Assembly: GCA_029549985.1 (NCBI GenBank) | Contig: JAKPIB010000037.1 | Location: 62,001-126,000 of the forward strand | Reading direction: 5' to 3' | DNA: 64,000 bases | Origin: Bacillota bacterium | GTDB taxonomy: Bacteria > Bacillota > Clostridia > Caldicoprobacterales > DTU083 | In this document: piece after piece, positions 2,811-18,770 of the stretch | How the letters are laid out: every line of letters starts with the position of its first letter | How positions within the stretch are numbered: the first letter of the stretch is position 1 | Position numbers and translations under genes: made by a program | Notes under the pieces: model-generated | Told to the model about the DNA's origin: nothing | What the model saw: the letters and a program-made list of their open reading frames with translations, nothing else | Database searches by the model: none

Positions 2811-3743
2811 ATGGATAAAAGCAGAGTTCGTATACTGGTTGTCGGCAGCATCAACATGGACCTGGTCATGAGCCTGGAGCGGGCCCCCGAGGCTGGCGAG
2901 ACCGTACTTGGAGATTCCTATACATACATACCCGGCGGCAAAGGCGCAAACCAGGCAGTGGCAGCAGCCCGCCTGGGGGCGGAAGTCACCTTCTGTGGCA
3001 GGGTCGGGGATGACGCCAACGGTGAGATCCTGCTCGAGAACCTAAGGAAAAACGGAGTAGATACAGCCTATATCACAAAGGACAAGGACTCTCAGACCGG
3101 GCTGGCTGCCATACCTGTGGATGCCACGGGCCAGAACAGGATAATCGTATTCCCGGGCGCCAACGGCAGGGTCTCAAAGGAAGACGTGGACAAAGCCCTT
3201 GAGCAAACCTATGATGCGGTGATGATGCAGCTTGAGATACCCCTGGAGACTGTATACTACACGTACAAAAAGGCTGCTGAAAAGGGGATCCCGGTCATAC
3301 TGGATGCAGGCCCGGCCATGAAAGTTGACCTCTCAAGGTTTGAAGGCATAAGCGTCATCAGCCCGAATGAGAGCGAGGCATCGGCTATAACCGGCATAAA
3401 GGTGCAGGACGAGGAAAGCGCCCTGGAGGCTGCCAGGTACCTGGCCAGGGAAACAAAGGCCGGATACGTGCTTATCAAGCTCGGGTCGAAAGGCGCCCTG
3501 CTCTATGAGGACGGCAGGCACGAAATATTCCCGGCTTTCAAGGTCAAGGCCGTTGATACGACAGCAGCAGGCGACTCCTTCACCGCTGCCATGACCCTGA
3601 AGATGATCGAATACGGAGATATTAGGAAGGCAATGCCCTACGCCAATGCAGTCGGCGCCATATGCGTCAGCCGGATGGGGGCCCAGCCCTCATTGCCCAC
3701 AGCCGAGGACGTAGCTGAGTTCATGGCCCAGAGGGGCTTATAA
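2811..3743 (+). CDS. rbsK: ribokinase (PfkB family)
   Basis: Phosphorylates D-ribose to ribose 5-phosphate in the cytosol. The 310-residue length is that of RbsK. N-terminal GSINMDLV and PGGKGANQAVAAARLGA (residues 41-57) form the sugar-binding and PfkB signature 1 region; NESEA near residue 185 and VDTTAAGDSFTAAM with catalytic Asp255 form the ATP/anion-hole region. The ATG follows GAGGGAAGGGG. It sits 12 bases before the nucleoside hydrolase start, so free ribose released by that enzyme would be its natural substrate. A related pentose or deoxyribose cannot be excluded. Confidence 0.9.
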   Translation: MDKSRVRILVVGSINMDLVMSLERAPEAGETVLGDSYTYIPGGKGANQAVAAARLGAEVTFCGRVGDDANGEILLENLRKNGVDTAYITKDKDSQTGLAAIPVDATGQNRIIVFPGANGRVSKEDVDKALEQTYDAVMMQLEIPLETVYYTYKKAAEKGIPVILDAGPAMKVDLSRFEGISVISPNESEASAITGIKVQDEESALEAARYLARETKAGYVLIKLGSKGALLYEDGRHEIFPAFKVKAVDTTAAGDSFTAAMTLKMIEYGDIRKAMPYANAVGAICVSRMGAQPSLPTAEDVAEFMAQRGL

Positions 3744-3755
3744 GGAGCCGTGCAT

Positions 3756-4619
3756 ATGAGTGATATAGCAAAAATACTGATAGACACCGATATAGGCGGG
3801 GATATAGATGATGCCCTGACGCTGGCAATGGCGCTGAACTCTCCTGAGGTAGAAATAAGGGGGATCACCTCCGTATACATTGCAGGGGAGTGGCGGGTCG
3901 GCATCATACGCCGAATGCTGGAGACTTACGGCCGTAATGATATAGAGGTAGCGATAGGGGCAGAAAAGCCCCTTTGCGGATGGTGGGATGACAAAAGGCA
4001 GCTTTCCTCCCACCTGGATGTTGAAGGCACAGTGAACATGCCTGCCTGCGACTACATCATAAAAAAGGTCAATGAAGAAAAGGATCTGACCCTTTTGGCG
4101 ATAGGGCCTCTTACCAACATTGCACTGGCTATAGCCAAGGATCCGGACCTGCCGCGAAAGACCAGGCTTGTACTCATGGGCGGACAGGTAAACAGGGCCC
4201 ATCCCGAATGGAACATAGCCTGTGATCCGGAAGCTGCCAGGATCGTGTTTGAGAGCGGCATTCCGATCAGGATGATTGGGCTTGATGTCACCAACCGGTG
4301 CAAGTTCGATTTCAGCCATATAGATAGGATAAGGGCAGGCGGCAACAAGCGGACGGACCTTCTTTCAGAGATGCTGGACAAGTTTATGAAGGACTTCAAC
4401 TTCATGCCTACCCTGCACGACCCGCTGGCGCTGGCATCGATAGTATGGCCGGAGCTGCTGACCTTTGAGGAAAAGACGATCCTCATAGAGACCAGGGGCG
4501 AATTCACCCGGGGCGTCACCGTGGACTGTGACTGGAAGCATGAGCCGAACGCCCAGGTTGCAGTAGATGTCAGGAAGGATGAGTTCATCGAGCGGGTACT
4601 TGCCCGGCTGGTCCTCTAA
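3756..4619 (+). CDS. inosine-uridine-type nucleoside hydrolase
   Basis: Hydrolyses the N-glycosidic bond of ribonucleosides to base plus ribose. The N-terminus carries the Ca2+-binding aspartate cluster IDTDIGGDIDDAL (residues 9-21). GPLTNIALA and MGGQ follow mid-protein, and LHDPLALA provides the late His-Asp of the active site. The length (287 residues) is slightly short for the family (about 310). A GTG at 3750 lies in frame, but AAGGAG at 3742-3747 is spaced 8 bases from the ATG at 3756, so that start is preferred. Next to ribokinase this makes a two-step nucleoside-to-ribose-5-phosphate route. Base specificity is not readable. Confidence 0.88.
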   Translation: MSDIAKILIDTDIGGDIDDALTLAMALNSPEVEIRGITSVYIAGEWRVGIIRRMLETYGRNDIEVAIGAEKPLCGWWDDKRQLSSHLDVEGTVNMPACDYIIKKVNEEKDLTLLAIGPLTNIALAIAKDPDLPRKTRLVLMGGQVNRAHPEWNIACDPEAARIVFESGIPIRMIGLDVTNRCKFDFSHIDRIRAGGNKRTDLLSEMLDKFMKDFNFMPTLHDPLALASIVWPELLTFEEKTILIETRGEFTRGVTVDCDWKHEPNAQVAVDVRKDEFIERVLARLVL

Positions 4620-4724
4620 GCTTCATCTGCAAACACTTGTTTATAGGAAGCAGGATCAACACCTATATAATTACCTTATTTTATATGTACACAAAATCAA
4701 AACTATCAGGGGCGGGGGTTTAAT

Positions 4725-5759
4725 ATGTTTGATTTTAAAGGCATTCCGGTGATCGATGCCCATTTCCACATCATGGGTGGCGCTGACCGCATCGAGCTTC
4801 TAAAAAAGCAAAAGGAACGCTATGGTTATGACAGGGTCAATGTATTGAGCCTTGAAGCGACCGACGGTCTGCAGAACGCAAAATGCATCACCTATAAGCT
4901 GATGTCTCCCGGAGATTATGCCTTTGCAGGTCTAAGCTACAACTCAGATGAAGATTTCCTGTCTCAGGCCAAAGCATTATATAATTTAGGATTTGATGGG
5001 TTCAAAATGATCGAGGGCAAGCCCGGCCCCAGAAAAAAGACCGGCATACCCCTGAACGACTCGGTCTATGATCCCTTTTACAGCTTTTGCGAGGAAAACG
5101 GTATACCAGTTTTGCTCCACGCAGCAGACACGGCTGTATTTTGGGATGAGTCCAAAGCGCCCTCCTTTGCCAAAGAAAGCGGATGGCTGTATACGGACGG
5201 GACTTTTCTGTCCAAGGAGGAGATAACCCGGGAAGTGATAGAGGTTCTCGAGAAGCATAGGCAGCTTAAGCTGATACTGGCCCATTTCTTCTTCATGTCC
5301 GACGACCTGAAGAGAGCAGGAGAGATGTTTGACAGGTATCCGAACCTATGCTTCGATATAACGCCAGGTACAGAGATGTACATTGACTTTGCCAGGGATA
5401 CGGCGGCTGCCAGGGCCTTCTTTGAGAAGTACCAGGACCGGATCATATTCGGTACGGACAACTATGATGTTGACCCCCAGGAAGAGAAGGAGATAAAGGA
5501 TGTCATAAACAGCCTGATGTACAGCTTCCTCTTTGAAGACAAGCCCTTCAGGGCCTGGGACCTGGAGCTTCATGGCATAGGCCTGGACCGAGAGGCCCTG
5601 GACAAAATCCTGCATAGAAACTTTGAACGGCTTACCCCCTTACAACGAGTGGACAAGGCCAATGTAATCGATTTTATAGCAAATGAGCTTGGACGGGCCC
5701 ACAAGACGGAGGAAGTAAAGGAAATCAGGGATATACTTGCCTTGATTTCAGATCTGTAG
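4725..5759 (+). CDS. amidohydrolase family 2 metal-dependent hydrolase
   Basis: TIM-barrel metal hydrolase of the PF04909 type. Visible ligands are HxH at VIDAHFHI (His13, His15), a barrel histidine in VLLHAAD, another in LILAHFFF and the terminal Asp in FGTDNYD. Members open lactones, decarboxylate or hydrolyse amides; the substrate here is not predictable. The ATG follows GGGGCGGGGG. It lies 105 bases after the nucleoside hydrolase, so it could be the last gene of that operon or separately transcribed. A TATATAAT stretch at 4664-4671 lacks a well-spaced -35. Confidence 0.75.
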   Translation: MFDFKGIPVIDAHFHIMGGADRIELLKKQKERYGYDRVNVLSLEATDGLQNAKCITYKLMSPGDYAFAGLSYNSDEDFLSQAKALYNLGFDGFKMIEGKPGPRKKTGIPLNDSVYDPFYSFCEENGIPVLLHAADTAVFWDESKAPSFAKESGWLYTDGTFLSKEEITREVIEVLEKHRQLKLILAHFFFMSDDLKRAGEMFDRYPNLCFDITPGTEMYIDFARDTAAARAFFEKYQDRIIFGTDNYDVDPQEEKEIKDVINSLMYSFLFEDKPFRAWDLELHGIGLDREALDKILHRNFERLTPLQRVDKANVIDFIANELGRAHKTEEVKEIRDILALISDL

Positions 5760-5885: not shown

Positions 5886-5918
5886 TATAGTCATCACGGA
5901 GAAAATTCCGTGACTATA
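5886..5918 (+). promoter_or_regulatory. 5' UTR hairpin upstream of surface protein
   Basis: TCACGGA (5894-5900) pairs with TCCGTGA (5907-5913). Outer TATAG (5886-5890) pairs with CTATA (5914-5918), leaving TCA as a bulge. No T-run follows. It is a leader structure or a dyad operator just upstream of the ribosome binding site. Confidence 0.5.
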
Positions 5919-5948
5919 AATAAAATCATTAGAGAGGGGTTATTAGTA

Positions 5949-6680
5949 ATGAAGAAACTTTTATCAGTTGCTCTGGCACTTGCTCTGGTACTGGCATTGG
6001 GTACAGTATCCGCATTTGCTGCCGTCGGTGACAAGTATGATGCATTTGAGCAGTTTGACAAGGTTAACAATGATGCATCCAATGTTCCGTGGAAGTACAT
6101 GATCACAAAGGACAAGGGAGCAACCTTTACAGAACTGACCTTATTCGAGGTCCGCAATTACGGCAAAGACTACAATGGCTGGTTCCAGGCTTCGGACAAC
6201 TATTGTGGTCTGGGTATCAACCTGGATGCTCCTGAAGGAACGCTAGAACTGAACATAGACAAAAATCAGGAGATTGCAGTTCTTGCGTTTGTAGCACCTA
6301 ACGATGGCAGCTTCAAGCTCAGCGGTAAAGTGCTGAATCCCTTCAACCAGGATGCACAGAGCTTCATGATCAAGAAGGGCTCCAATGAAGTACTGAATGC
6401 CAACATAACAGCGCTCAAAGCCGAAGGGGATATGACTGAGTATGCCTTTGTAAAAACTGTGGACTTAAAGGAAGGCGACGTAGTTTACTTCTTCGGTACT
6501 ACCAGCAATGAGGAAAGCGGCTGGTTCAGCATGATCGTTGACATCGAAGTAGAAGAAGTAGAGCCCGCTACCGAAGAGCCTCCGCAGACCGGTGACAGCT
6601 CAGTCGTTATGTTCGTAGTTCTCGGCCTTGCAGCTCTGGCTGGTATCGTTGTATTCAGCAGGAAGTTAAGGATCCAATAA
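5949..6680 (+). CDS. secreted surface protein with PPQTG sortase-type anchor
   Basis: 243 residues. N-terminal signal peptide (MKKLLSVALALALVLALG...AFA, cut near residue 23). The body is beta-rich and resembles the module of the two lipoproteins downstream: both end with a VDLKEGDVVYFF-like strand. The tail is acidic linker, PPQTG at residues 211-215, a hydrophobic span (about 219-237) and a short basic end (SRKLRIQ), the layout of a sortase substrate; clostridial class B sortases are known to use (S/P)PxTG. Start chosen at 5949 because GAGAGGGG precedes it and the signal peptide begins there; an in-frame ATG at 5910 falls inside the hairpin. Function unknown; a carbohydrate-binding role is inferred only from the module type. 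Confidence 0.72.
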   Translation: MKKLLSVALALALVLALGTVSAFAAVGDKYDAFEQFDKVNNDASNVPWKYMITKDKGATFTELTLFEVRNYGKDYNGWFQASDNYCGLGINLDAPEGTLELNIDKNQEIAVLAFVAPNDGSFKLSGKVLNPFNQDAQSFMIKKGSNEVLNANITALKAEGDMTEYAFVKTVDLKEGDVVYFFGTTSNEESGWFSMIVDIEVEEVEPATEEPPQTGDSSVVMFVVLGLAALAGIVVFSRKLRIQ

Positions 6681-6719
6681 GGTTAAAGAACCTACGTATA
6701 TCAAGGAGGAAAAATCAAA

Positions 6720-7376
6720 ATGAAAAAAATAGTATCCCTTCTGTTGGTCGGGATCATGGTACTGGCTTTCGCAGCTTGTGCAAAGAAAACACCGGAACCG
6801 CAAGTCAATAAGCCTGACTGGCTGGCTGAAGTACCTACAGTTACAGATGAAGACAAAGTAGCAAACTACAAAGATGCATACAAAGGCGACAAGGAAAACG
6901 GCCCTGTATGGTACTATCTGTGCGATGACGGCACAGGCATAAGAGAGCTCCATTATACAGAGGAGTGGGGCGACAACTGGCAGTATTCCGAGAATCCCAC
7001 TGTTGACCAGGTCTACTACTCCCTTATGGACTGGGAAGGCCTGAAGGTCAATGCTGGTATGTGGGGAGACGTCAACGTCAAGATAATCATCGGATGGCGC
7101 GCATATAAAGACGGCACTGCCAAGATCGGTGAGTGGGACTACACAGCATATGACGGATCTGCCAACCTTGAAAGCTTTGTTGCCGGCTCCAAGGTCACCA
7201 TCCTCCACAACGATACAGAGATCTGGACAGGCACATCCACAGCTGAAGGTGGAGACGTTTACGAAGGTACCGAAGTAGAAGTTAAAGAAGGCGACTTCAT
7301 CTACTTCGTATTCGACGGCAAGGATGCTTCCAATGCTCATCATGCCCTCGATACTCTGTCTGTTACTCTGGAATAA
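6720..7376 (+). CDS. lipoprotein with beta-rich module, paralogue A
   Basis: 218 residues. Lipoprotein signal peptide with lipobox AFAAC (lipid Cys20). Preceded by AAGGAGG. The mature part has GPVWYYLCDDGTG, EEWGDNWQY, VKIIIGWRAYKDGTAKIG and VEVKEGDFIYFVFDG, a pattern I associate with small beta-sandwich modules repeated in large extracellular glycoside hydrolases of Firmicutes (memory, not searched). Here the module stands alone. Clearly homologous to the next gene along its whole length. Probably surface-displayed, possibly glycan binding. No enzyme motif is visible. Confidence 0.75.
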   Translation: MKKIVSLLLVGIMVLAFAACAKKTPEPQVNKPDWLAEVPTVTDEDKVANYKDAYKGDKENGPVWYYLCDDGTGIRELHYTEEWGDNWQYSENPTVDQVYYSLMDWEGLKVNAGMWGDVNVKIIIGWRAYKDGTAKIGEWDYTAYDGSANLESFVAGSKVTILHNDTEIWTGTSTAEGGDVYEGTEVEVKEGDFIYFVFDGKDASNAHHALDTLSVTLE

Positions 7377-7394
7377 TCGACAACCTGAGCCAGG

Positions 7395-7422
7395 AGAGCT
7401 GCTGCAGCAATGCAGCAGCTCT
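7395..7422 (+). terminator. 12-bp perfect hairpin after lipoprotein A
   Basis: AGAGCTGCTGCA (7395-7406), loop GCAA, TGCAGCAGCTCT (7411-7422), followed by the weakly T-rich TATTAAATT. Likely a partial terminator or 3' stabiliser between the two lipoprotein genes. A near copy follows the second gene. Confidence 0.6.
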
Positions 7423-7501
7423 ATTAAATTGCCATGGTAATTAGCAACAAGTGTAAATCGCATATGGTCATCCTGTTTGATTCAAGAGGAGGATATTATA
7501 G

Positions 7502-8167
7502 ATGAAAAAAGCACTGGCTGCCCTATTGGCAGGTATAATGCTGCTGGCATTGGTATCCTGCAGCAAACCCTCGGAGGAGGACACTTCATCGCCATACAAG
7601 CCCCAGGTAACTGAAGTCAAGGAAGAAGACAAGATAGTATATTTCAAGGATGCGGTCAAGGGTGACACAGAGCAGGGCCCCGTCTGGTTCTATCTCTTTG
7701 ATGACGGCAGCGGGTACAAGGACCTGTATTACACCGAGGAATGGGGCGACAACTGGCAGTATTCCGACCACCCCACAGTGGACAATGTATATTACTCTAT
7801 ATTTGACCAGGACGATGCTGAAGGCGTGCATCAGAACTATGTATGGGCCGGCCCCTATGGAGATTTGAATGTCAAGATCGTCATCGGATGGAGGGCATAC
7901 AAGGACGGTACGGCCAAAATCGGCAGATGGGATTTCACAGCATATGAATATCAGGCTATGGTAAACAAGCTGGACGGCGGTATAGTAACCATCCTGAAGA
8001 ATAGGGAAGAGCTGTTCAACGCGACCACGAAAGCTGACGGAGAAAACATTTTTGAAGGTAAGGAAGTCGAAGTAAAGGAAGGCGACATGATCTTCTTCGT
8101 ATTTGATGGCAACAACCTGCCCAAGGCAAGCTTCCTAATTACCGACCTGAGCGTTGAGCTCAACTGA
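7502..8167 (+). CDS. lipoprotein with beta-rich module, paralogue B
   Basis: 221 residues. Lipobox ALVSC (lipid Cys20), strong ribosome binding site AGAGGAGGA. It matches paralogue A across the whole mature region (GPVWFYLFDDGSG, TEEWGDNWQYSD, GWRAYKDGTAKIG, VEVKEGDMIFFVFDG), with a few extra residues around the QNYVWAGPYGD segment. The pair arose by tandem duplication. The strongest conservation is at the WGDNWQY and GWRAYKDGTAKIG strands, which suggests a shared ligand face. No catalytic motif seen. Located between the PPQTG protein and the glycyl radical enzyme. Confidence 0.75.
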   Translation: MKKALAALLAGIMLLALVSCSKPSEEDTSSPYKPQVTEVKEEDKIVYFKDAVKGDTEQGPVWFYLFDDGSGYKDLYYTEEWGDNWQYSDHPTVDNVYYSIFDQDDAEGVHQNYVWAGPYGDLNVKIVIGWRAYKDGTAKIGRWDFTAYEYQAMVNKLDGGIVTILKNREELFNATTKADGENIFEGKEVEVKEGDMIFFVFDGNNLPKASFLITDLSVELN

Positions 8168-8194
8168 TCTTTCTGGCAGATAGATATGGGCATT

Positions 8195-8224
8195 AAAGCT
8201 GCTGTATGCAAATGCAGCAGCTTT
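8195..8224 (+). terminator. hairpin after lipoprotein B, similar to the one after A
   Basis: AAAGCTGCTG (8195-8204) pairs with CAGCAGCTTT (8215-8224) around a TATGCAAATG inner region. Only GATGCTTTGATT follows, so termination strength is uncertain. It shares the GCTGCTG/CAGCAGC core with the hairpin at 7395. Confidence 0.55.
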
Positions 8225-8291
8225 GATGCTTTGATTACTTGTGTGATGCGATTTGATTGAGCCGGCAGGCTTTATATTTTCATATACTTAA

Positions 8292-8363: not shown

Positions 8364-10601
8364 ATGGCAATAGGAAAACTTACAAGGGAATTGCACTTTA
8401 CCGAAGTGTACAAGAAGTATAAGGATGAGCATATCGCCATAAGAGAGGCCATGTGCCTTAAGGCACAGTTTCCGGGCTTTCTCGGCGGCATAGAGGATAA
8501 CGACCTGTTCGCAGGCCGGCTGGACCTTCCTGCAGTAGGCATTACGCCGGATGAGTGGGGGCCGACTTCCTTCGGGTACTATTGCATAGAGCAAAGGCTC
8601 ATCGCAGAGATCGAAGATCCCTCTCTGGATGAGGACTACAGGCAGGCGGTAAAGGACATGCTCGATTTCTGGAGGGAGGAGAACACATCCACAAAGCTGC
8701 GCCGGGCTTTTCCGGAGAAGATGGCCAGAGAGCTTTACACCGACGACTGGATGAACCAGTCGGGCATATCCTTTCCCCTGTACAGGCTTTGCGGAGGCTA
8801 CATCAACTTTGACAAGCTTCTGCAGATAGGCATCCCCGGCCTGTATGAAGAGGTTGAAAGGTACAGGCAAAAGGCCGAAAGGGAAGGCGGGGACGTCAAA
8901 TTCTATGAGGGTGCCAGGATAGCCCTTGATGTCTTTGTTGATACCTGCCTGCACTTCTCCAATATGGCCTTCGAGATGGCAGAAACAGCCAGGACCAAAG
9001 AGCGGGCTGAAGAGCTCAGGCTGATGGGCACCACTCTGAAGAAAATAACAAAGGAGAAGCCGGCCCACCTCTGGGAGGCCATCCAGCTTATGTGGCTGTA
9101 CTCACTGGTTGCTGATGTAAGGAATCTGGGCAGGATGGATGTCTACCTGGGAGACTTTTATGTAAATGACCTTGAGACCGGCGCCCTGACCGAGGAGGAC
9201 GCCCTCAGGTATCTTGAATCCCTCTGGCAGCTGATTGCCGACCGCAACACCCGGGTACACGGACGGGTCATCATTGGCGGCAAGGGCAGGCGCAACGAGG
9301 AGAATGCGGACAAGTTCGCCCTCCTGGCCATGGAAGCAACAAGGAGGGTACTCGAGGTCGAGCCCCAGCTGTCCCTGCGCTTCTATGAGGGCATGAACCC
9401 GGCCCTGTTCGCAAAAGCCCTGGATGTGATCGGGGAGGGCAGGACATACCCGATCCTGTACAACGACGATGTAAACATAAAGGCAGTGGAAGAGGCATTT
9501 GGATTCACAACTGAGACGGCTGAGCAATACGTGCCCTTTGGCTGCGGGGAATATATCATCGATCATCAGAGCTTCGGCACGCCCAGCGGGGTCATAAACC
9601 TGCTCAAAGCCCTTGAGGTGACCATGCACAATGGCATCGATCCGATGACCGGCAGGAAAATGGGCCTTGCCCTGGGCAGGTTTGAGGACTTTGAAACCTT
9701 TGACGAGCTGTTTGAGGCATATAAGAAGCAGGTCGAGTATTTCGTGGAGATCATGGCCGACCATGAGGAGCTTGAGTACAAGATAGCCGGAGAGACAGCG
9801 CCATTCCTGTATATGAGCATGCTTTACGACGACTGCCTGGAGAGGGGCAAAGGCATGTTCTCCGGTGGCGTAAGGTACCTGGGAGGTACCCTGGAGACCT
9901 ATGGCAACACGAATACTGCAGACAGCCTGACTGCCATAAAGAAGCTGGTGTATGATGAGAAGGTCATCAGCAAGGAGCGGCTCCTGGCAGCATTGGATGC
10001 GGATTTCGAAGGCTACGAGGATATCCGACAGCTCCTGCTGGATGCGCCCAAGTACGGCAATGACGACGATACTGCTGATGAAATGCTCCTGAAGGTGCAT
10101 AACCATGTGTGCAACGCGGTAAGGGACCAAAGGCATCGTACAAGTCTGCATTCATACCTCGTGGTAATAATCAACAACAGCGCCAATACGCTCATGGGTC
10201 ACCAGACATCGGCCTCTGCCGACGGCAGGAGGAGCGGGCTGTACATGAACAACGGCAATGCGCCTATGAGCGGCATGGATAAAAACGGCATCACCGCCAT
10301 GCTGAACTCCATAGTCAAGCCAAGCACCCATATCCATGCAGGCGCAGTACAGAACATGAAGTTCAGCCGGGAGATGTTCACCACCCGGAGGGCGGAGCTG
10401 GAGGCGCTTCTGAAGACCTACTTCCAGAATGGCGGAGCTCAGGCCATGATCACGGTCGTAAACCGCAACGATCTGGAAAGAGCTATGGAGGAGCCGGAGA
10501 AGTACCACCATATCTTCGTACGCGTAGGCGGTTTCAGTGCAAGATTTGTTGAGCTCGGCAGGGACGTGCAGCTCGATATTCTGAACAGGACCCTGTACTG
10601 A
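8364..10601 (+). CDS. glycyl radical enzyme of unknown substrate (pyruvate formate-lyase superfamily)
   Basis: 745 residues. The C-terminal radical loop RVGGFSARF carries the glycine radical site at Gly723, and the active-site thiyl loop VPFGCGEY has Cys394 with Glu396. The C-x-E spacing is that of the dehydratase/eliminase/decarboxylase branch (glycerol dehydratase, CutC, HPAD type); pyruvate formate-lyase has Cys-Cys. The family is a 10-stranded alpha/beta barrel that acts only without oxygen and needs the radical SAM activase encoded immediately downstream. The N-terminal PFL domain (about 1-600) and the glycine radical domain (about 620-745) are both complete. Shorter than glycerol dehydratase (787) or HPAD (about 900). 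I cannot assign a substrate. Start: ATG after AGAGGAAG. Confidence 0.88.
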   Translation: MAIGKLTRELHFTEVYKKYKDEHIAIREAMCLKAQFPGFLGGIEDNDLFAGRLDLPAVGITPDEWGPTSFGYYCIEQRLIAEIEDPSLDEDYRQAVKDMLDFWREENTSTKLRRAFPEKMARELYTDDWMNQSGISFPLYRLCGGYINFDKLLQIGIPGLYEEVERYRQKAEREGGDVKFYEGARIALDVFVDTCLHFSNMAFEMAETARTKERAEELRLMGTTLKKITKEKPAHLWEAIQLMWLYSLVADVRNLGRMDVYLGDFYVNDLETGALTEEDALRYLESLWQLIADRNTRVHGRVIIGGKGRRNEENADKFALLAMEATRRVLEVEPQLSLRFYEGMNPALFAKALDVIGEGRTYPILYNDDVNIKAVEEAFGFTTETAEQYVPFGCGEYIIDHQSFGTPSGVINLLKALEVTMHNGIDPMTGRKMGLALGRFEDFETFDELFEAYKKQVEYFVEIMADHEELEYKIAGETAPFLYMSMLYDDCLERGKGMFSGGVRYLGGTLETYGNTNTADSLTAIKKLVYDEKVISKERLLAALDADFEGYEDIRQLLLDAPKYGNDDDTADEMLLKVHNHVCNAVRDQRHRTSLHSYLVVIINNSANTLMGHQTSASADGRRSGLYMNNGNAPMSGMDKNGITAMLNSIVKPSTHIHAGAVQNMKFSREMFTTRRAELEALLKTYFQNGGAQAMITVVNRNDLERAMEEPEKYHHIFVRVGGFSARFVELGRDVQLDILNRTLY

Positions 10602-10639
10602 TGCCGGTAGAGATAAATTGCTGTGAAAGGCAGGCGCAT

Positions 10640-11551
10640 ATGGATAGAGTCCAGGGAACGATATTCGATATACAGCGGTTTGCCCTGCATGACGGGCCGG
10701 GGATAAGGACTACGGTATTTCTGAAGGGCTGTCCCCTGCGCTGCATATGGTGTCATAATCCGGAATCACAGGATTTCAACCCCCAGCTTTCCTTTGACAG
10801 GGCCAAATGTACAGACTGCTTCAGGTGTGTGAAGGCCTGCCCCGCCGGTGCCCATAAAGTCGTAGACGGAAGACACGTAGCAGATCATGGCAGATGCTGC
10901 CTTAGTGCGAAATGTGTTGAAGCCTGCCCGAACGGGGCACTGAAGATAATCGGCAGGAAGCAAAGCGTACGGGAGGTCATGGATGTAGTCATCAGGGATA
11001 TCGCCTACTACAACAACTCAGGTGGCGGCATGACGATCTCAGGCGGCGAACCCATGTCCCAGTTCAGGTTCACCCTGGAGCTTTTGAAGGCTGCAAAGGA
11101 AAAGGGTATCCATACCTGTCTGGACACAAGCGGCTATGCCCCCGGGGACCTGTTTGAAAGGGTCCTGCCATACACGGACTTGTTCCTCTATGACTACAAG
11201 GCCACGGATGACAAAGAGCATCTTAGGCTCACGGGGGTTTCAAACCGGCTCATCCTGGACAACCTGGATCTCCTGTACAGGGAAGGTGCCTCCATCATAC
11301 TGCGGTGTCCCCTGGTAAAGGGGATTAACGATACGGACGAGCACTTTATGGGCATCGCAGAAATAGACAGGAAGTATCCTGGCCTTGCGGGCATCGAGCT
11401 GATGGCCTATCACAATATGGGGCACGAGAAGTATGAACGGATCGGCCGCAAGCCTGAGATGGAGATGCTGCCGACCACGGATGAGGCGACAAAGGAATCG
11501 TGGCTGGAAAGGCTGAAAGCCTTTGGCTGCGGCAAGGCGATCATAGGATGA
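10640..11551 (+). CDS. glycyl radical enzyme activase (radical SAM)
   Basis: Generates the glycyl radical on its partner using S-adenosylmethionine and a 4Fe-4S cluster. The radical SAM motif is GCPLRCIWC (CxxxCxxC), followed by two ferredoxin-like cluster segments (CTDCFRCVKAC and CVEAC). These extra clusters are typical of activases of the eliminase type and absent from PflA. ISGGEP is the SAM-binding GGE motif. The usual family start FDIQRFALHDGPGIRTT begins just after Met at 10640, preceded by AAAGGCAGG. An earlier ATG at 10601 overlaps the upstream TGA as TGATG and would add 13 atypical residues; translational coupling remains possible. Partner: the gene ending at 10601. Confidence 0.9.
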   Translation: MDRVQGTIFDIQRFALHDGPGIRTTVFLKGCPLRCIWCHNPESQDFNPQLSFDRAKCTDCFRCVKACPAGAHKVVDGRHVADHGRCCLSAKCVEACPNGALKIIGRKQSVREVMDVVIRDIAYYNNSGGGMTISGGEPMSQFRFTLELLKAAKEKGIHTCLDTSGYAPGDLFERVLPYTDLFLYDYKATDDKEHLRLTGVSNRLILDNLDLLYREGASIILRCPLVKGINDTDEHFMGIAEIDRKYPGLAGIELMAYHNMGHEKYERIGRKPEMEMLPTTDEATKESWLERLKAFGCGKAIIG

Positions 11552-11594: not shown

Positions 11595-11629
11595 GCTGCC
11601 CCTTCTTTGTACAGGCGGGGCAGCTTTTT
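11595..11629 (+). terminator. rho-independent terminator
   Basis: GCTGCCCC (11595-11602) pairs with GGGGCAGC (11617-11624), followed by TTTTT. It closes the glycyl radical enzyme operon. Confidence 0.85.
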
Positions 11630-11681: not shown

Positions 11682-11785
11682 CATAGACAATCGATAGCTG
11701 CTTGCTAAGCAGGCGCAATAATGGTTACAATGTAATTGATGTGCTGGATATACCTATCACAAATACTGTGCAAAGGATGAGAAGT

Positions 11786-12688
11786 ATGAAGGTGGATATA
11801 ATCGGTGTCCCCATCGATCTAGGCGCCAACAGAAGGGGCGTCGATATGGGCCCGAGCGCCATACGCTATGCCGGCTTGCGGCGGGAGCTTATGGCCATGG
11901 GCATAGAATACAGGGACAAGGGCAACATAGCGGTCGATGTCATAGAGTATGAGGAGCCCCAGCCCAGAAGGGCAAGGCACATCGATCAGATAAATGAAGT
12001 CAACAAGTCGCTGGCCGACCAGGTGAAGAGGAGCCTTGAGGACGGCGCTTTCCCAATCGTGCTTGGCGGCGATCACAGTATAGCGGTCGGCACCCTCTAC
12101 GGTGTACAGAGCGTGCTCAGAAACGTTGGCGTCCTTTGGATAGATGCGCACACGGATTTCAACACGCTGGAGACCACCATGACAGGCAATGTCCATGGCA
12201 TGCCCCTGGCAGCCTTGACCGGCATCGGGGCCAAGGAGATAATCCCCTTCAAAACCGATGATGTCCCCTACATAGACCCTGAAAAGGTAGTGATCATAGG
12301 GGCCAGGAGCATAGACGAGGAGGAAGCGGTCCTGCTCAGAAAATCAGGTGTCACGATCTTTACGATCAGGGACATTGACATGTACGGCATGCGCTCTGTC
12401 ATGGAGGAAGCCATCAAGCTGGTTTCCGACGGTACTGTCGGGTATCATGTCAGCTTTGACATGGATGTGCTGAATCCCAGCGAAGCACCTGGCGTCGGCA
12501 CCCCCATTTACGGCGGCCTGACCTACAGGGAAGCCCTGCTGGCAGCCGATATCATCGCCAATGACAACAAGATCAGGTCCCTGGAGCTGGTGGAAGTCAA
12601 CCCGATGCTGGACAAGCAGAATCAGACTGCGGAGATGGCTGTTTCCCTTATATGCGCCATGGTTGGCAGGAAGATAATATACTATTGA
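11786..12688 (+). CDS. rocF: arginase (ureohydrolase family)
   Basis: Hydrolyses L-arginine to ornithine and urea with a binuclear Mn2+ centre. All metal motifs are visible: GGDHS, DAHTDFN and SFDMDVLNP. GNVHGMPLAAL after the DAH motif is the arginase (not agmatinase) signature. 300 residues, as for RocF. Start placed at 11786 (MKVDIIGVPIDLG) with AAAGGA at 11772-11777 spaced 8 bases; upstream in-frame codons give unrelated residues. The convergent neighbour is an ornithine cyclodeaminase-type gene, so the pair could take arginine through ornithine to proline. Confidence 0.88.
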   Translation: MKVDIIGVPIDLGANRRGVDMGPSAIRYAGLRRELMAMGIEYRDKGNIAVDVIEYEEPQPRRARHIDQINEVNKSLADQVKRSLEDGAFPIVLGGDHSIAVGTLYGVQSVLRNVGVLWIDAHTDFNTLETTMTGNVHGMPLAALTGIGAKEIIPFKTDDVPYIDPEKVVIIGARSIDEEEAVLLRKSGVTIFTIRDIDMYGMRSVMEEAIKLVSDGTVGYHVSFDMDVLNPSEAPGVGTPIYGGLTYREALLAADIIANDNKIRSLELVEVNPMLDKQNQTAEMAVSLICAMVGRKIIYY

Positions 12689-12705
12689 CAGGCGCTTAAG
12701 AAGGA

Positions 12706-13788
12706 TCAGACGTTGTTTCTCAAATGCACCACAAAGTCCTGGATGTTGGTCACTATTGAGATCACCGACAGGCTGCCGCGGTCCTGCAGCTTGTTCACGA
12801 CAAACTCGGAAATATCTACGGTAAATATGAATACAGGCCTGACCCTGCCCTCATGCACGATGTATGAGGGCGTCATATTGCCTGAAGCAATGGTATGGAG
12901 CTGGGTGGCCAGGCAGATAAGGGTCGTAGCCTTTCTTGTCTGGTCGCGCATCCTGTCCTGGGCTTCATATGCATCAGCTATCACATCGGGCAGGGGGCCG
13001 TCATCCCTGATGGAGCCCGCCAGGACAAGGGGTATGTCCTTTCTGATGCAGGCCTGCACGATACCGGTATCAATGTTCTCACCCTCTACAAAGTCCCTGA
13101 GGCTCTTATACTTACGTGCCCTGTTGATGACATCGATATGATGATAGTGCCCCTTGGCTATTGGGACCTGGCTGTATATATCCTGGCCCAGGGCCGTCCT
13201 GTATATCGCTGCCTCAAGATCATGGGTCGCCATGGCGTTGCCTGCCAGGACCGCATCTACATAGCCTTTCTCGATAAGGGATACGAAGCCGTTCCTGCTG
13301 TCTGAATCGAAAACTACGGCGGGCCCCAGGACCCAGACGATGTAGCCATGGTCCCGTTCGTATCTCAGGAGCTCATAAAGGAAATCATAATCCTTGGAAA
13401 AGGATGTCTCCCTAGAGCGGCCTGTCCTGAACGCGAAGGGTTCCCTTATGGTATCGCTTGTCCTGAACCCATCCACATGTACTAAAATCCCCCTGCTCCC
13501 ATCCTCTTCCCGGCCGACCAGGACCTTGTCACCGGCCTTCAGCCTGCGGAATTCAACGACCTCCAGCTCATCATCATCCCTTAATACGACGGCGCAGTCC
13601 ATCCGGCTTTCCTTCAGCAACCTCCATTGGCCCTTCACTTTGACGTATTCAGGGAAGATCGTGGTCCCGTGATAGCCTTCCGGCGCTGTCCCGACCGTCT
13701 CTACAGGCCTGAACTCAGCATCGGGGCTGCTGGCCATAGGCTCCCTTGTAAAGTCCGGTTCTCTGTATACAGGCAACTCAAACTTCAT
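12706..13788 (-). CDS. ArgZ/AgrE-type ornithine cyclodeaminase (LOR/SDH conserved family)
   Basis: 360 residues. Belongs to the family first defined by a conserved region of the plant lysine-ketoglutarate reductase/saccharopine dehydrogenase (LOR/SDH) and later tied to ornithine cyclodeamination in archaea and in cyanobacterial ArgZ/AgrE C-termini. Visible signatures are the N-terminal HGTTIFPEYVKVKGQW and RMDCAVVL segment, a Rossmann-like part with VLGPAVVFDSD, DAVLAGNAMATHDLEAA, GHYHHIDVINR and the diagnostic VLAGSIRDDGPLPDVI. Converts ornithine to proline plus ammonia with NAD. AAAGGAG precedes the ATG. Its 3' end faces arginase, 17 bases apart with no terminator. Family recognised from memory; function by family and context. 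Confidence 0.75.
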   Translation of the reverse strand: MKFELPVYREPDFTREPMASSPDAEFRPVETVGTAPEGYHGTTIFPEYVKVKGQWRLLKESRMDCAVVLRDDDELEVVEFRRLKAGDKVLVGREEDGSRGILVHVDGFRTSDTIREPFAFRTGRSRETSFSKDYDFLYELLRYERDHGYIVWVLGPAVVFDSDSRNGFVSLIEKGYVDAVLAGNAMATHDLEAAIYRTALGQDIYSQVPIAKGHYHHIDVINRARKYKSLRDFVEGENIDTGIVQACIRKDIPLVLAGSIRDDGPLPDVIADAYEAQDRMRDQTRKATTLICLATQLHTIASGNMTPSYIVHEGRVRPVFIFTVDISEFVVNKLQDRGSLSVISIVTNIQDFVVHLRNNV

Positions 13789-18471: not shown

Positions 18472-18770
18472 CAATAGTATGTAAATGCCGGTAACGATAT
18501 GAGCTGGTGCATATACAGGTGATGAAGGGAAGTAGTAGGCTTTTACGTTTTTCAAAGAGAGCCGCCGCTTGTGGTGAAAGGCGTGCAAAAACGGGAGCCG
18601 AACTCGTCCCGGAGCTGCCAGGGTGAACCGTAGTAGCCCCGGCCGGTAAAGCCGTTATCTTTTCAAGGGGCCGCATCATGGCAAAAAGCATTCATGCTGA
18701 GCCGGAAACGGCAAATAGAGTGGTACCGCGGGCTTTCGTCTCTATGGAGGATGAAGGCCTTTTTCTATTA
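18472..18770 (+). promoter_or_regulatory. T-box riboswitch leader, leucine specific
   Basis: Senses uncharged tRNA-Leu and lets transcription read into leuS. Seen: AGAGAGCC stem I base, GGTGAAA (18573 area, GGUGNRA loop), specifier region GAACTC with CTC (Leu) at 18603-18605, and the T-box AGAGTGGTACCGCGG at 18717-18731 whose TGGT pairs with the tRNA ACCA end. The terminator stem GGGCTTTCGTC/GATGAAGGCC runs into CTTTTT at about 18730-18768. Specifier, discriminator pairing and the downstream gene all agree. Confidence 0.92.

Follow-up and report, generated by a model that had tools for sequence, protein, structure and literature searches.

The window, meaning the whole 64,000-nt stretch of DNA analysed here, carries the gene of a glycyl radical enzyme (GRE) followed directly by that of a radical SAM activase. 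The features of the locus are:

8188..8231, +, 20-bp hairpin separating the lipoprotein gene upstream from the GRE gene (-31.1 kcal/mol, z -7), also present in the sister genome
8350..8357, +, AGAGGAAG, resembling a Shine-Dalgarno site, ahead of the GRE gene, read from the sequence
8364..10601, +, GRE of the CGE clade, 745 aa, ATG start (ORF, Pfam, alignment and tree)
9543..9551, +, codons of Cys394-Gly395-Glu396, the CxE loop (computed from the ORF start; alignment)
10530..10532, +, codon of Gly723, the glycyl radical site in RVGGFSARF (computed from the ORF start; alignment)
10601..11551, +, GRE activase, radical SAM, with a two-cluster ferredoxin insert, up to 316 aa (TIGR02494, Pfam and sequence)
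11595..11629, +, terminator-like GCTGCCCC...GGGGCAGC-TTTTT after the activase gene, found by eye in the alignment and missed by the pattern scan

Gene Neighbourhood in the Window

The GRE and activase genes seem to form a transcription unit of their own. The hairpin at 8188–8231, which has a weak T tail, is likely the end of the upstream transcript. The pair lies between hairpins, and its neighbours in the window therefore say little about its function. A ribokinase, a nucleoside hydrolase and an amidohydrolase are encoded upstream (2811–5759) on the strand of the GRE gene, in an order kept in the sister genome; a GH106 protein and two ABC clusters also lie upstream, and an arginase lies downstream. 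Because the hairpin and the terminator-like element bound the GRE–activase pair, all of these genes probably belong to separate units. The ribokinase, nucleoside hydrolase and amidohydrolase genes would suit a substrate tied to nucleosides or ribose, but the strong hairpin stands between them and the GRE gene, and in genome G251, from the same family, and elsewhere they do not accompany the GRE gene. We regard such a substrate as very improbable, and an assignment from the window neighbours was rejected.

Other observations were made around the locus. A surface protein of the LPXTG type and a pair of paralogous lipoproteins (6720–7376 and 7502–8167), which share a YTEEWGDNWQYS..PTVD motif, are encoded in a row at 5910–8167, and none of the three had a Pfam match. 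At 11702–13788 the arginase gene (TIGR01229, over cut-off) faces a gene for a protein with the C-terminal ArgZ-like domains only, lacking the dihydrolase part. A T-box leader (18513–18746) precedes leuS (18811). Just before the window (L045) there are two sets of sugar ABC transporter genes whose binding or DUF5696 proteins are very large, along with one GH13-like and one GH106-like enzyme.

The GRE and Its Activase

The 745-aa protein matched the PFL-like (413 bits) and Gly_radical (80 bits) domains of Pfam. It has the catalytic Cys, the radical Gly and the adjoining radical SAM partner that mark the GRE superfamily, and its Cys-Gly-Glu fits the CxE motif of the eliminase branch (dehydratase/CutC). 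Cys394, Gly395, Glu396 and Gly723 were invariant in a first alignment of six sequences, which confirmed the positions and the completeness of the motifs given in the preliminary description. Judging from the intact residues and the activase, the GRE is a complete and probably active, oxygen-sensitive radical enzyme. The locus is reproduced in a sister genome of the same genus at 95% identity. In the window's genome the GRE was the sole PFL-type (PF02901) protein found; no PFL was seen in that search, and a class III ribonucleotide reductase is present. A role as PFL substitute was rejected, the PFL match reaching 67 bits and covering the C-terminal part only.

The protein had also been called shorter than the named enzymes. 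This holds against most solved members (759–897 aa), but shortness alone is a weak argument because E. coli PflD (765 aa) and PflB (760 aa) are only slightly longer. In the alignment, a real part of the difference appears as a 6–8 residue deletion before the GRMD motif.

The first ATG of the activase overlaps the GRE stop codon (TGATG), and the ATG at 10640, preceded by a AAAGGCAGG-like ribosome binding site, is a plausible alternative start. The activase scored 347 bits with TIGR02494 (cut-off 174) and matched Fer4_12, Radical_SAM and Fer4 in Pfam, with the Fer4-type match over residues 65–113. Its sequence contains the radical SAM motif CPLRCIWC (CxxxCxxC) and eight further Cys for two clusters in CTDCFRCVKAC and CCLSAKCVEAC. 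The best equivalog was the HypD activase, at 334 of the 425 bits needed. The two extra clusters had been noted as a sign of the eliminase branch; they are present in the sequence, but many GRE activases have them. What supports the eliminase assignment is the Glu of the CxE loop together with the profile scores, and not these clusters.

The CGE Clade

Relatives were sought in some 1,600 genomes (about 1,630), comprising class, phylum, family and order samples. Some 25 further members with 39–95% identity were found in several families of the same class: 60% within the family, 53% in two genomes and 39–48% across several families of the class. No additional member came from the sample of the whole phylum, so the clade is narrow, and the viral contigs searched contained no relative. 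In a maximum-likelihood tree of 51 GREs, which included E. coli YbiW, PflD and PflB and one HypD and covered only a few of the characterised families, the 18 sampled members formed one group with SH-aLRT 100 on a long stem. Identity was at least 31% within the clade (median 39%) and 18–33% with other GREs (median 26%).

We define the CGE clade as a single clade with the GC(G/T)E loop, Arg141, Gly144, Arg301, Asn604, Asn632 and a short beta2 segment, and the GRE of the window has all of these marks. The Gly in the middle of the loop, described earlier for this protein, is real; it is not private to the protein and marks a clade of about 25, in which one sub-branch has Thr. The suggestion of a new subclass stands in the sense of an undescribed subfamily; its members share the known GRE eliminase fold, and further branches without an assignment stand alongside it. 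Literature searches, in which subscription journals were little covered, turned up no publication describing a CGE subfamily. The clade is new as a subfamily and ordinary in its fold and general chemistry. Overall, we think it fairly likely that the GRE belongs to a subfamily of glycyl radical eliminases that is monophyletic and not yet described.

Other unusual GREs were observed in the same searches. GREs of ~700–820 aa with GCNQ, GCSQ or GCQE loops (L008, L011, L015, L018, L021 and L022) are neighbours of the CGE clade in the tree, and their beta2 segment is shortened too. A second GRE stands beside the CGE GRE at two loci: one combines a GCQE loop with an unusual glycyl motif, RIHGTFVNF (L098:16967–19534), and the other has GCNW in place of CxE (L102:9900–12242). 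In genome G387 (L039:10893–12140), a CGE GRE without its N-terminal two thirds abuts a cut AraC gene, which would reflect a deletion or an assembly fault.

Distance from Named Enzymes

The best phmmer match in the PDB was glycerol dehydratase (1r8w, 266 bits). It was followed by 8iof, annotated as benzylsuccinate synthase, and by HypD, archaeal PFL2, CutC and YbiW; IslA chains scored 177–179 bits. In NCBIfam, the GRE reached 376.9 bits with TIGR01774 (PFL2/glycerol dehydratase subfamily), below the cut-off of 678.2, in contrast to the canonical-eliminase clostridial GREs at L009, L012, L014 and L025, which pass this model. The equivalogs tried were HypD, CutC, sulfopropanediol dehydratase, indoleacetate and hydroxyphenylacetate decarboxylase, the PflD model NF007437 and PFL. 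None reached its cut-off, and all scores were below 30% of it (HypD 314 vs. 1100 bits; CutC 282 vs. 1050 bits). The GRE at locus L029 is a true HypD, with 1447 bits. Neither NCBIfam nor a sequence search of the PDB yielded a named CGE member.

A profile built from 21 members of the clade ranked glycerol dehydratase 1r8w, CutC, YbiW and diol dehydratase at the top, with HypD close behind. Glycerol dehydratase and diol dehydratase (5i2a) share the CxE loop and the Gly radical domain with the clade and are its best profile match, but they are distant; their beta1 His, NGHSIS segment and CVE loop are absent from the CGE clade. No microcompartment or diol genes were noted near the CGE loci.

The Reaction Pocket

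Pocket positions were compared by aligning 26 members of the clade with 34 other GREs. The middle residue of the CxE loop is Gly in 24 and Thr in two of the 26 members; the other GREs have V (15), I (8), Q (4), N (3), S (2) and L (2), which bears out the earlier remark that this position is usually bulkier. Glu396 is kept in all 26 members. At position 144, 23 of 25 members have Gly and 33 of the 34 other GREs have His; the register at Gly144 could be off by one residue, and no conserved polar residue is seen at position 145 either. Arg141, just before Gly144, is present in 25/25 members.

The His column would correspond to the beta1 contact site, as read from the HypD alignment and with an uncertainty of one residue. 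The solved eliminases generally have a polar residue (His, Asp or Gln) at this site, which depends on the substrate and is not a strict mark of the branch. This site commonly contacts the substrate, as with Gln193 of IslA, Asp216 of CutC and His160 of HypD; upstream of it, Arg189 of IslA binds the sulfonate and Arg156 of HypD acts through water (PMC8473560). By analogy with these two residues, Arg141 may serve to hold a charged group. The alignment is poor in the N-terminal half, and Arg141 coincides with the Arg of IslA and HypD only when the register is moved by one residue.

The beta2 segment, which holds Asp278 of HypD and what we take to be His281/Ser282 of glycerol dehydratase, is 6–8 residues shorter in the clade. 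Asn301 and Asn316 of canonical GREs are replaced by Arg301 and Asp316, which may be a mere structural swap of the Asn pair. Asn604 and Asn632 are invariant in the clade, and Asn605 aligns with Thr645 of HypD in the phmmer alignment. The beta3 Phe/Tyr/Trp of GREs (PMC8473560) is seemingly replaced by Asp, Asn or His, a weak observation as the column is gapped in many other GREs. A structure prediction from four sequences gave pLDDT 47 and pTM 0.39.

HypD (6vxc) resembles the clade as a CxE eliminase with an Arg upstream on beta1, and its activase is the best activase equivalog. It differs in identity (28% with a HypD locus), in His160, lost in the clade, in Asp278, whose position holds Asp in only 12 of the 26 members, and in Thr645, whose position is Asn. 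CutC and IslA share the GRE eliminase fold and the CxE motif, but they score low and their contact residues are not shared with the CGE clade. As far as the alignments tell, the pocket is rebuilt relative to known eliminases throughout the clade. The preliminary description had named clear grouping with a characterised enzyme, with shared contact residues, as what would overturn it; what we found is a separate clade with changed contact positions and no close enzyme in the PDB or NCBIfam.

Gene Context of the Relatives

The activase gene lies downstream of the GRE gene in most relatives' loci, and a cupin-type AraC regulator directly adjoins in about half of them. Across the clade, no neighbour besides these two is conserved. 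A ROK kinase and a NanE-like epimerase are encoded at L070 and L077, in two families, and beta-glucan-type enzymes (GH16, GH94 and GH1) at L070. Gfo/Idh and xylose-isomerase-like proteins with ABC transporter genes occur at L069, L073 and L077, a xylulokinase at L098 and a fructose-type PTS EIIBC at L103. The case for a dedicated PTS at L103 was weakened, since it lies with 1-phosphofructokinase and is apparently an ordinary fructose system. Kinases and glycosidases are common in such genomes generally. The context of the relatives suggests sugar metabolism.

Proposed Function

A radical elimination is suggested by the Glu of the CxE loop and by the highest-ranking profile matches (glycerol dehydratase, CutC and YbiW). 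By family inference, the activase would put a radical on Gly723, which would generate a thiyl radical on Cys394. This radical would take H from a hydroxyl-bearing carbon of the substrate; with Glu396 as acid/base, the neighbouring C–O bond (less likely C–N) would be broken to give a carbonyl product, and H would be returned in the last step, as in established GRE chemistry. The substrate might be a carbohydrate-derived polyol, cyclic ether, sugar or sugar phosphate/acid. Because the relatives often stand beside AraC regulators, sugar transporters, kinases and glycosidases, a hydroxylated, perhaps anionic, sugar derivative appears likeliest.

IslA and CutC cleave C–S and C–N bonds with CxE loops, and the pocket of the clade is strongly unlike those of other GREs. 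Both points would fit another GRE chemistry (C–C cleavage, decarboxylation, C–S or C–N cleavage) that merely keeps the loop. Against this, PFL, HPAD and benzylsuccinate synthase gave the lowest scores with the clade profile, and the neighbours are sugar-related and not aromatic, sulfonate or amine genes. We hold such a chemistry to be unlikely.

The GRE could also be an outlying representative of an eliminase family already known, in particular of the YbiW/PflD type. These are CxE eliminases with an adjacent activase and a sugar context, which open 1,5-anhydrohexitol-6-phosphates, sugar-derived cyclic ethers, to 1-deoxyfructose-6-phosphate (PMC12441222). YbiW is among the best profile matches, and sugar kinases or PTS genes lie near some relatives, as E. 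coli pflD lies with a fructose-like PTS. However, identity is 28% to YbiW and 25% to PflD, both stand elsewhere in the tree, their loops are CIE and CVE, and both keep the beta1 His that the clade has lost. In anhydroglycolysis an FSA-type aldolase acts next. No TAL_FSA (PF00923) member was found in the window's genome (96.7% complete), and this route misfits that genome because the family is absent; it is also absent from 17 of the 24 other clade-bearing genomes, although a different aldolase could replace FSA. We consider membership in such a family distinctly unlikely.

An elimination of a sugar derivative by a separate subfamily remains our preferred reading. We tentatively entertain, at low probability, that the clade carries out a GRE radical reaction not yet described, such as a sugar dehydration or ring opening, and thereby serves a new anaerobic sugar route of Clostridia. 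One example would be abstraction of the anomeric C–H of a free or phosphorylated sugar, in which the C2 substituent would leave and a 2-deoxy-lactone would form.

Significance of the Clade

The GRE subfamilies assigned so far have each brought an anaerobic pathway to light: choline to TMA, hydroxyproline, isethionate and 1,5-anhydroglucitol. An uncharacterised GRE branch is not rare in itself, and several other unassigned branches were met in the same searches. The CGE clade, compact and well marked, combines a specific signature in the pocket with a minimal system of two genes, and its value lies in this clean signature and its simple testability.
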